Below, one piece after another: positions 6,308 to 61,598 of a stretch of 64,000 nt of DNA. The position numbers were made by a program, and so were the translations under genes. Location of the stretch: the NCBI RefSeq assembly GCF_009618275.1, contig NZ_WIAD01000014.1:1-64000 (forward strand), read 5' to 3'. Within the stretch, counting starts at the first letter, position 1. The number at the start of each line of letters is the position of its first letter. This DNA is from Roseimaritima sediminicola. GTDB taxonomy: Bacteria > Planctomycetota > Planctomycetia > Pirellulales > Pirellulaceae. A model generated the notes under the pieces. The model searched no databases. It was given only the letters and a program-made list of their open reading frames with translations, and was not told the DNA's origin.

Positions 6308-6400
6308 AAGTAGCTCGGCTGCCCCAGCCGTGAGGCGCCAAAGTAGCTCGGTTGTCCCAGCCGAGAAACCAAACAAAGTAGCTCGGTTGTCCCAGCCGAG
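6308..6400. repeat. Three copies of the AGCTCGGCTG palindrome
   Basis: Three near-identical imperfect palindromes of the form AGCTCGG(C/T)TG-(T/C)CC-CAGCCGAG stand at 6311-6333, 6344-6365 and 6379-6400, spaced about 34 nt apart. They fill most of the 308-base gap between the genes at 5824 and 6459. The same unit recurs at 30532, 31559, 54101 and inside the gene at 60072. Confidence 0.85.
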
Positions 6401-30371: not shown

Positions 30372-30531
30372 GGCGTCGGCCCCGCGAGGCATTGTCCGTA
30401 TAAATCAGAACGCCCCAAGTGAGCGAGCATTGCAGCGGCACGAGCAAGGTGGTGCCGAAAAAGCGGACGTATTGTTTGCCAGAGGGCGGATTGTTGCAAG
30501 GACCGTATCGGCTAGCTCAGCGGCCCAAAGC

Positions 30532-30554
30532 AGCTCGGCTGTCCCAGCCGAGCT
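30532..30554. repeat. Perfect REP-like palindrome AGCTCGGCTG-TCC-CAGCCGAGCT
   Basis: A 10-bp perfect inverted repeat with a 3-nt loop starts 2 nt beyond the stop (30556-30558) of the following minus-strand gene. It could serve as that gene's terminator, though no T-run follows. It matches the coding copies at 60722 and 60785 almost exactly. Confidence 0.9.
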
Positions 30555-31419: not shown

Positions 31420-31558
31420 GCAAATCAGGGGCTAAAGGCACCGCAGGGTCAAGGCTCCGCGACCAAGACGCTCGTATCGATTATTCGGCTCGCGGAGCCT
31501 CCACGGCCCAGGAAAACTCTTCGCCTTTCAGGAAAAGGCACAGGTAGCCGCCCAATAG

Positions 31559-31628
31559 CAGTTCGGCTGTCCCAGCCGAGAAGAAAGTAGCTCGGCTGCC
31601 CCAGCCGAGCGACCCTGCCCCAGCCGAA
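31559..31628. repeat. AGCTCGGCTG palindrome copies upstream of rpsJ
   Basis: One full copy (31588-31610) and one nearly full copy (31559-31580) are followed by a truncated half (CCCTGCCCCAGCCGAATC). They share the unit found at 6308, 30532 and 54101. This is part of the 445-base gap 31420-31864. Confidence 0.8.
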
Positions 31629-44872: not shown

Positions 44873-44886
44873 CGATCCGCCCAGTG

Positions 44887-44933
44887 GCATAGGCTTCCAG
44901 CCTGTGAACAGTAGCATAGGCTTCCAGCCTGTG
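44887..44933. repeat. Two copies of GCATAGGCTTCCAGCCTGTG
   Basis: The 20-nt unit occurs at 44887-44906 and 44914-44933, beginning 14 nt after the nrdR stop. A partial copy (CACAGGCTGGAAGCC) occurs between ccoG and ccoH near 22350. Confidence 0.75.
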
Positions 44934-54100: not shown

Positions 54101-54150
54101 ATCTCGGCTGGGACAGCCGAGCTGCTTTGCTGGGACAGCCGAGCTGCTTT
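54101..54150. repeat. AGCTCGGCTG palindrome copy plus partial copy
   Basis: A copy (TCTCGGCTGGGACAGCCGAG at 54102-54121) is followed by a half copy (TGGGACAGCCGAGC at 54131-54144). It lies between the DCC gene and the convergent secreted-protein gene. Confidence 0.85.
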
Positions 54151-59492: not shown

Positions 59493-59912
59493 GATTGCAA
59501 ATTGCAAATCTCCTGACTCCGGCGGAATCTATGTAGTGCTCGGAACGGTAGAAGACAATGTTTTCTCCCCTCTCCCCCGCTGCGCCGCGAGCGTCAGTGA
59601 GTGAAGCAGTGGTGGGAGAGGGGCCGGGGGTGAGGGGGCTCGGGTGCAACGGAATGCCTGTTTGCGCACGCCTTTCCGATTCCCGTACGGTATCGAGACA
59701 CCGCACTGGTGGTGCCGCTCTGCTGGGCCCAGAGGGACGACACGAATTGCGGTGCCAGACTTCCTGTCGCCCTTCCAGGGCTTTTGTTCGTGGTGTTTAC
59801 GTTTCCCCAGGCTCGCGCCTGGGGCTACCACATGTCGCCACTTCCGTGGCTGCTGCGCCCCGAGCTTCGCACGCCCTACATAGAATCCGCCGGAGTCAGC
59901 AAATCTCAAATC
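59493..59912. mobile_element. MITE-like element B (420 bp)
   Basis: The left arm ends CTGACTCCGGCGGAATCTAT (59513-59532). The right arm begins ATAGAATCCGCCGGAGTCAG (59880-59899), an inverted match. The outer ends continue with TGCAAATC and AATCTCAAATC. The centre repeats the CCCCTCTCCC..GGGAGAGGGG stem of element A. It covers most of the 645-base gap 59427-60071, which also holds a short (TCGCCACTCGCC)n-type array at about 59937-59975. Confidence 0.7.
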
Positions 59913-60071: not shown

Positions 60072-61598
60072 ATGCACGTCAGCGGTACACGACTGCCAGT
60101 CCTGGTTGCCCTTACGATGATGGTCGCCACCGTCGGCTGCCGCACTCCCCCGTTCGATCGCTCGATCCAGGTGAGTCAGCAACCCAGCGAACAAGATCAT
60201 CGCCGCGACAAGCCGCCCACGCGTTTGGCTTACAGCAAGAAACCCGCCGCGGGTGTTGCTCCCGCCGGCGCGGCGGCGGCCACCGCGTCGATCGATGACA
60301 GCGGCCAGCAACTGACCAGCTCGCTGGCGGCCGCCGGCACGTCGGCGGCCGACGCCGACGGTGTGGTCCAGGACAAAGAACTGCTCGAAGCGTTCCGCGA
60401 TGCGGACCCGGTCATTCGCGATGCCGCTCGCCGACGTCTGGCGGCCACCAAGCAAACCCAGATCCAGAGCAAACCGCTGCCGGATCTGCCCACCCGCGCC
60501 GAACTGGATGCCGATCCCTTTGCCGCCGAACCCGATGCGGTCGCCACCGCCGACGCTCCGCGGCAAGCCGCTGCCGAAAAGAGCTCGCCGGTCGTGCCCG
60601 CTTCGCACAGCGCTCAGGCCGAGCAGGCTCCGGCTGAACGGCCCACTGCGCCGGCCGCCGCCGAACCGCTGCTCGGCCCCGATTCCACTACCGAACAACT
60701 GGCCGCCGACGAAGCCAAAGCAGCTCGGCCGTCGTCAGCCGAGGAAGCGAAACCTTCCCAGCCCGCCGCCGACGACGCCAAAGCAGCTCGGCTGTCCTCA
60801 GCCGAGGAAACGAAGCCTTCCCAGCCCGCCGCGGACGAAAATCCCAGCTCGGCCGCCAGCCTCGAACGATACAGCGACCAAAAGCTGCTGGCCGAACTGG
60901 CTCGGCGCTGGCAGACCATGCCCGAAGACCTCGACGAACCGGGCCAGCTGCGGCACCACGTGCGGCGCCGCATGCTACTGTTGCTCGACGGCCGGATCGA
61001 CGAAGCGGTCGAGCCGATCGACTCGCTCGGCAGCAGCGAGCAGGAGTACCTGCGAAACCAACTGCTCGCCCTCTGGACGGCGATGGACCCGCAGGGACAT
61101 CCCGTGCTGCAGCGGCGTTGGTCGACGGCACTACCACACCTGCGCGACGCCACCAAACACATGGCGGCCGCCACCGGAACGCTGGAAGTCGGCTCGTTGG
61201 CCTTCTGCACCGAAGTCGAATCGTACGGTCGCATCAAACCCTTCGAATCCACGCGGTTCAAAGCCGGCCAGCAGGTCATCCTGTACAGCGAAGTCGACGG
61301 TTTTGCTGCCGAACGGCTCAGCAACGGTTACGAGACCCAGTTCCAGGGCTCCTACGAGATCTTCGATCACAGCGGCAAACGCCTGTACCACAAAGTGCTG
61401 CCGGCCGACCGTCAGGTCTGCAACAACTACCGTCGAGATTACTTCATCGCCTATCGCCTGCACCTGCCCAGCCAGTTGGCCGAGGGCCAGTACCGCATGG
61501 AATTGACGATGGAGGATCTCAAGGGTGAAAAATACGGCCAGGCCAGCATCGATTTCGAGATCAACGGTTCAGTCGCCAAACCGCACGCGGGCAGCTAG
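60072..61598 (+). CDS. Lipoprotein with internal duplication derived from a dispersed repeat
   Basis: The product is 508 residues. The lipobox VATVGC has Cys23. A Pro/Ala/Ser/Asp-rich, probably disordered stretch (24-260) holds two 21-residue units (213-254). The C-terminal domain (about 260-508) has SLERYSDQKLLAELARRWQT and FKAGQQVILYSEVDGFAAER. No known family is recognised. The ATG at 60072 has GAGG 6 nt upstream and gives a proper lipoprotein signal. The final 30 nt overlap the convergent ABC-2 permease gene. Confidence 0.8.
   Translation: MHVSGTRLPVLVALTMMVATVGCRTPPFDRSIQVSQQPSEQDHRRDKPPTRLAYSKKPAAGVAPAGAAAATASIDDSGQQLTSSLAAAGTSAADADGVVQDKELLEAFRDADPVIRDAARRRLAATKQTQIQSKPLPDLPTRAELDADPFAAEPDAVATADAPRQAAAEKSSPVVPASHSAQAEQAPAERPTAPAAAEPLLGPDSTTEQLAADEAKAARPSSAEEAKPSQPAADDAKAARLSSAEETKPSQPAADENPSSAASLERYSDQKLLAELARRWQTMPEDLDEPGQLRHHVRRRMLLLLDGRIDEAVEPIDSLGSSEQEYLRNQLLALWTAMDPQGHPVLQRRWSTALPHLRDATKHMAAATGTLEVGSLAFCTEVESYGRIKPFESTRFKAGQQVILYSEVDGFAAERLSNGYETQFQGSYEIFDHSGKRLYHKVLPADRQVCNNYRRDYFIAYRLHLPSQLAEGQYRMELTMEDLKGEKYGQASIDFEINGSVAKPHAGS
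60708..60833 (+). repeat. In-frame 63-bp duplication built on the AGCTCGGCTG palindrome
   Basis: Two 63-bp units (60708-60770 and 60771-60833) encode 21 residues each, both with AKAAR and AKPSQPAA or TKPSQPAA. Each unit carries a version of the palindrome (60722-60744 and 60785-60807). The second copy shares CAAAGCAGCTCGGCTGTCC with the perfect intergenic copy at 30532. Confidence 0.9.

Follow-up and report, generated by a model that had tools for sequence, protein, structure and literature searches.

The lipoprotein-like gene and its tandem array

The stretch of DNA analysed here, hereafter 'the window', comprises 64,000 nucleotides of the Roseimaritima sediminicola genome, whose assembly spans 6.25 Mb in 185 contigs and is 98.86% complete. 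It contains a gene (Table 1) whose product begins like a lipoprotein, continues into a long linker and ends in a conserved C-terminal part; the open frame starts at 59709 if the first GTG is used. The 508-residue product gave no match in Pfam or NCBIfam at an E value of 1, and matches to it occurred in 49 of the 60 genomes searched, its own genome counted. In the predicted model (mean pLDDT 58.7), pLDDT is below 50 at residues 150-261. The linker, of low predicted order, extends to residue 261, and its low pLDDT is partly due to the model's alignment, which covers mainly the C-terminal part; the model suggests that the linker is disordered. A fold search likened the C-terminal beta-sandwich to Wzt carbohydrate-binding domains (TM by target 0.47-0.56 for single-domain Wzt hits), the scores across the whole chain being low.

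TRF detected a tandem array at 60702-60839, with a period of 63 bp and 2.2 copies, as well as a 33-bp sub-period in the linker. As the original prediction had it, the array holds two in-frame 63-bp units (residues 211-252), each carrying a version of a short palindrome, designated REP below, that is dispersed through the genome. The units share 58 of their 63 bases, and three of the five differences change a residue; this match indicates tandem duplication of a single segment bearing the REP. A decayed half-unit may follow them, since in 4,000 codon shuffles its 3-nt-loop REP score was reached 35 times, its 4-nt-loop score 462 times and its unit 1 score 218 times, which makes for weak evidence.

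Table 1. Features of the window and four REP tags that supply a stop codon
Feature	Position	Strand	Remarks
Three intergenic REP copies, head to tail	6310..6400	+	
Intergenic REP copy	30530..30552	+	GCAG tag, TCC loop
Two intergenic REP copies, head to tail	31558..31609	+	
Intergenic REP copy and adjoining incomplete copy	54101..54147	-	22-bp period
Lipoprotein-like gene	60072..61598	+	508 aa; lipobox Cys is residue 23 (by eye); REP-bearing
63-bp unit 1	60702..60764	+	encodes AADEAKAARPSSAEEAKPSQP
Coding REP copy 1	60720..60743	+	GCAGCTCGGCCGTCGTCAGCCGAG, diverged
63-bp unit 2	60765..60827	+	encodes AADDAKAARLSSAEETKPSQP
Coding REP copy 2	60783..60806	+	GCAGCTCGGCTGTCCTCAGCCGAG; last 22 bases identical to TCCT-loop subfamily
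Possible third, decayed half-unit	60828..60861	+	other frame
Predicted tryptic peptide			LSSAEETKPSQPAADENPSSAASLER
REP tag TAG as stop codon	C97:182239, C88:38980, C117:36456, C153:15460		

The REP family

The palindrome has the form GYAG-CTCGGCTG-loop-CAGCCGAG, with an 8-bp stem and a short loop, and is about 24 bp long. From 68 ungapped copies with a 3-nt loop, found in 857,675 bases, the consensus CAaAGTAG-CTCGGCTG-TCC-CAGCCGAG-A was derived. Its tag, 8-bp stem and short loop make the family one of GTAG-type REPs. It is asymmetric: a GYAG tag is conserved at the 5' end, whereas the 3' 'CT' in the unit as originally written is not. Loops are of 3 nt (mostly TCC) or 4 nt (TCCC, TCCT), A/T variants occur in the stem, and four of the six reading frames are open. 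Within the window, the intergenic copies originally reported at 6308, 30532, 31559 and 54101 were all recovered; there are eight matches with at most three mismatches, compared to a mean of 0 in shuffled sequence, and the perfect palindrome as first written (with any 3-base loop) occurs solely at 30532.

A sample of 1,235,458 bases contained 128 strong copies (at most three counted differences), two of them inside the lipoprotein gene. This 1.24-Mb sample, about 20% of the genome, is non-random, being made of stretches picked around listed matches and transposase genes, plus places with 4-nt loops, and the proportions that follow are not genome-wide. Among the 126 strong copies outside the lipoprotein gene, 104 have the tag GTAG and 15 GCAG; the loop is TCC in 76, TCCT in 26, TCCC in 13 and other in 11. 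By the gene calls of our own codon-usage caller, 116 of these copies lie between genes, 7 run into the 3' end of a gene and 3 precede a likelier start. The 119 copies that could be classed stood between unidirectional (64), convergent (49) or divergent (6) gene pairs, compared to 321, 116 and 146, respectively, for all gaps of at least 60 bp. In 4 of the 7 copies that overlap a gene end, the upstream gene terminates at the TAG within the tag (Table 1).

Two side observations concern the surroundings of intergenic copies. At L167 10596-10741 (C107), copies recur with a period of 61 bp, near the 63-bp period of the gene. Another dispersed repeat, CATAGGCTTCCAGCCTGTG-like, adjoins some REP dimers (window 44882-44933 and the C108:211415 region) and reads HRLEAYATV in an open frame.

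Distribution of the REP among genomes

At no more than two mismatches, the genome of R. sediminicola yielded 219 forward and 219 reverse matches, spread over many contigs, compared to 1 and 0 for a control pattern read backward; with the TCC-loop pattern alone, the figures were 99 and 144. A palindrome may score on either strand; the genome has more than 200 places. The three congeners, searched with the TCC-loop pattern, had no match each at this threshold. With at most one mismatch, matches were found in 6 of 241 genomes of the family, own genome included: 221 strand places in the latter, 6 in G173, and 1 or 2 in each of the four others. G173, a 3.5-Mb genome from another genus of the family, thus holds six strand places of nearly the same REP, and the two inspected carry a GTAG tag; horizontal spread or contamination may account for them.

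We also searched for recurring GYAG hairpins whatever their stem. None recurred in 200 kb each of the congeners G001 and G002, where 3 and 7 hairpins were counted, compared to 5 and 9 in reversed controls. The R. sediminicola sample contained 180, of which 87 share the stem CTCGGCT, compared to 111 in its reversed control, which itself also holds one recurring stem, 16 times. Among the genomes searched, the REP is abundant only in this lineage.

Orthologues and linker length

The units are absent from the four orthologues that were aligned, three from congeners and one from another genus. A tblastn search (filters off) with the 45-residue stretch was conducted on 65 homologous loci, which include the own locus and, in L033 and L093, two loci from one same genome. 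The 64 others gave no convincing match (best 29% identity, E 0.004), nor did they contain a REP with three or fewer tag and stem mismatches; units shared with distant orthologues, which would have spoken against the original prediction, were thus not found in these 64 loci.

The prediction that each unit had added 21 residues held only in that each encodes 21. The linker does not exceed those of the four orthologues in length (299 residues from the lipobox Cys to a conserved SSEQE-type anchor, compared to 297, 306, 276 and 298, the 276 and 297 being shorter and 306 longer), and a net lengthening of the protein by 42 residues is therefore without support. Counted from PLPDLP to the anchor, the distance is 186 residues here, and 172, 185 and 179 in the three congeners.

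Similarity of the coding copies to the REP

Over the 20 tag and stem positions, copy 2 has one mismatch; copy 1 has two, plus one loop difference. Copy 2, which reads KAARLSSAE, is from AGCT onward an exact member of the TCCT subfamily, over 22 bases. The one inserted loop base that had been ascribed to the coding copy is in fact part of an ordinary 4-base TCCT loop, present in 19 other exact copies: GYAG followed by the exact TCCT core has 20 exact places in the genome, and the lipoprotein copy is the only one with GCAG, the other 19 all having GTAG. Both coding copies bear GCAG. Copy 2 keeps the REP, whereas that of copy 1 carries two more changes; as read from the sequence, a T-A stem pair has become C-A in copy 1. 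The block shared by copy 2 and the 30532 copy, originally given as 19 bases, is at its longest 20 bases, including the upstream CCAAA (CCAAAGCAGCTCGGCTGTCC).

A genome search with the 138-bp array gave 63 matches, nearly all of which cover the REP core within positions 63-117 of the query (40 of 245 candidates scored); among the same scored candidates, two matches (72 and 74% identity) extend further, at C11 and C119, where they run over adjacent REPs. As nearly all matches are to the core, the flank seems to be local sequence, and unit 2 to have arisen in place. The coding copies lie wholly inside real coding sequence, with a continuous frame and homology on both sides. A coding score was calculated for the weaker flank at 97 distinct places, of which 67 belong to the sample and from which those close to a locus edge were omitted: it was 19.8 and 13.9 at the two lipoprotein copies, and 4.3 at the next best place.

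Such similarity could in principle be convergent, the codons of a linker rich in Ala, Glu, Lys, Pro and Ser having happened to resemble the REP. The linker is indeed compositionally biased, and its 33-bp sub-period goes in the same direction. However, in 5,000 synonymous permutations of the lipoprotein gene alone, no place reached one mismatch or fewer, 5 reached two and 34 reached three; codon-order shuffles of the linker gave three mismatches in 2 of 5,000 cases and never fewer. When 881 called genes (1.03 Mb per set) were permuted 40 times, no place with 0 or 1 mismatch was obtained, 1 had two, 7 had three and 172 had four, and none of those with three or fewer fell in the lipoprotein gene. 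An earlier permutation of 10 sets, which included two doubtful REP-bearing frames, gave three places with two mismatches and three with three. Codon choice tells the same way: GCA, GCT and TCA, rare in the genes of the sample, stand where the REP requires them, and given the peptide, the codons of copy 2 have a probability of 4.6e-7 under the codon use of the sample. None of 200,000 back-translations of KAARLSSAE matched all 24 bases of the element, and 9 came within one mismatch. At the level of permutation and back-translation, chance and codon convergence are thus rejected, and we hold convergence to be highly improbable; because none of the 5,000 permuted genes comes as close, the match between gene and REP is one of DNA homology. 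The similarity is far better than that of shuffled sequence, as the original prediction required.

Origin of the coding REPs

We conclude, with a probability of about 0.8, that a GTAG-type REP of the TCCT subfamily entered the disordered linker of the lipoprotein and was tolerated, and that a 63-bp segment was then tandemly duplicated. The REP, with its 4-nt loop, would have inserted into the DNA encoding the linker, where it could be tolerated since four of the six REP frames can be read through and constraint on the linker is slight. The 63-bp segment, made of the REP and its flank, would next have been duplicated by slippage or unequal recombination, yielding the two in-frame 21-residue units. 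Insertion followed by duplication in a disordered region, already put forward in the original prediction, is the best reading because the repeat is lineage-specific and of high copy number, the subfamily match is exact, the orthologues are without the REP, the units match at 58 of 63 bases, and predicted order is low; the parts of the claim that lack support are the one inserted loop base and the growth by 21 residues per unit. The linker is too diverged for the edges of the insertion to be placed. The movement was probably from repeat to gene, entry may have occurred by RAYT-type transposition, and the units would have been tolerated as near-neutral rather than kept for a selected function. 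Several points count against this reading: first, the length of the linker, which does not exceed that of its orthologues; second, the combination of a GCAG tag with the exact TCCT core, which is absent from other copies; third, the lack of this REP within about 1.5 kb of any Y1 transposase gene in the genome; and fourth, the low pLDDT, which owes something to poor alignment coverage of the linker.

The first of these points would be met if gene conversion or template switching had put the REP in place of linker DNA, so that the protein was not lengthened. But in a linker of such variability, independent indels could offset an insertion, and the flank homology required for conversion was not found among the scored matches; we regard overwriting as unlikely. 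The second point bears on the direction of transfer. Were the REP family seeded from the lipoprotein linker and spread thereafter as non-coding DNA, the tag and core combination seen nowhere outside the gene would be less surprising, and sequence alone gives a pair no polarity. Against this, the family shows the hallmarks of REPs (the tag, two loop classes, A/T stem variants, more than 200 places), of which the gene copies represent one sample with a minority tag, and no other scored copy showed the flank of the unit. A transfer out of the gene is therefore very improbable.

It may also be asked whether the coding REP is kept as an mRNA hairpin or a protein-binding site, the peptide being a passenger. 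A 7-bp hairpin with a 4-nt loop is predicted at copy 2; however, the 138-nt array folds no better than shuffled sequences (z -0.91, 39 of 200 being at least as stable), and copy 1 is without one of the stem pairs. A role at the level of the nucleic acid thus seems quite unlikely, and we retain insertion into a permissive linker followed by duplication.

Relation to known systems

The passages of Di Nocera, De Gregorio and Rocco (2013, PMC3733652) that concern GTAG-tagged REPs describe stem-loops of 20-40 bp with a GTAG/GYAG tag at one end, grouped into 24 families, several of them in Rhodopirellula baltica; some are intragenic and encode 20-30 residues, or 43-82 residues when clustered. By those passages, the present repeat shares with them the 5' GYAG tag, the 8-bp stem, the short loop, the high copy number, the preference for unidirectional and convergent gene pairs, the arrangement in dimers and clusters, the use of the tag TAG as a stop codon and the existence of some intragenic copies. 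It differs in that no flanking RAYT was found here, and the likeness is one of class features (PMC3733652). Rickettsia palindromic elements, as passages in PMC10969869 and PMC3733652 present them, are likewise palindromic repeat DNA inserted in frame inside protein-coding genes, but they are about 150 bp long or CGTC-tagged and occur in many genes. The lipoprotein REP is about 24 bp long, has the tag GYAG and is found in one clear gene in the 20% sample; on tag and length, it is not a Rickettsia palindromic element.

Tandem repeats occur in disordered linkers of exported proteins. The lipoprotein units resemble these in being an in-frame multiple of 3 and rich in alanine and proline, and differ in having been seeded by a dispersed repeat element. 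Our literature searches found no paper on this lipoprotein gene or this REP family. Events of this kind, from repeat to protein, are already published, as the passages on intragenic GTAG REPs and Rickettsia palindromic elements make clear (PMC3733652, PMC10969869), and the present one is not a first. It is a well-resolved planctomycete example of protein derived from non-coding repeat DNA, in which the repeat was not found in congeners, one copy matches a subfamily exactly, and a segment was duplicated in tandem; REPs can enter genes whose linkers are little constrained. The principle being known, the case extends the record rather than changing it.

REPs in other genes and transposases

Five of the 128 strong copies lie wholly within called frames, two of them being the lipoprotein copies. 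Those at C108:211415, C95:56686 and C95:56722 each precede a more plausible start codon and, on inspection by eye, were taken to be non-coding. Copies in C152 fell in a doubtful N terminus under looser start scoring, and were gone once the scoring was changed. The looser scoring also gave four weak matches within called genes, C97:26333 among them. The latter corresponds to a decayed candidate at C97:26334-26357, AGCTCGGC-AGGCAA-CAGCCGAG, which departs from the core pattern of the 4-nt-loop class by one mismatch and has three tag and stem mismatches and three loop mismatches. Its translation, KPARQATAE, uses the frame that gives KAARLSSAE in the lipoprotein and falls in the linker of a different protein, whose N terminus is signal-like; the best match in the congener G001 is without 17 residues around it. 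About 0.2 places of this quality are expected per permuted gene set (8 with at most three mismatches in the 40 sets), and the candidate is intragenic under the longer gene start, the shortened call leaving it outside. It is a lead only to a second intragenic REP. One may speculate that exported proteins of this lineage repeatedly acquire linker sequence from the REP, which would be read in one preferred frame (K-x-A-R-x-x-x-A-E), and that its palindrome then seeds in-frame tandem growth; if so, a selfish repeat would drive fast change of surface proteins. We consider this broader scenario rather unlikely.

Matches to PF01797 (Y1 transposase) numbered 7 in the own genome, 13 in G001, 8 in G002 and none in G003. 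None of the seven own genes has a REP of the lipoprotein type within about 1.5 kb, the nearest being one site with five mismatches. At one locus (C105:23125-23469 and flanks), a Y1 transposase gene has around it six GTAG hairpins that belong to a second family, of GTAGCCAGGGGC or GTAGCCTGGGGC type; this is likely a REPtron unrelated to the lipoprotein REP family.
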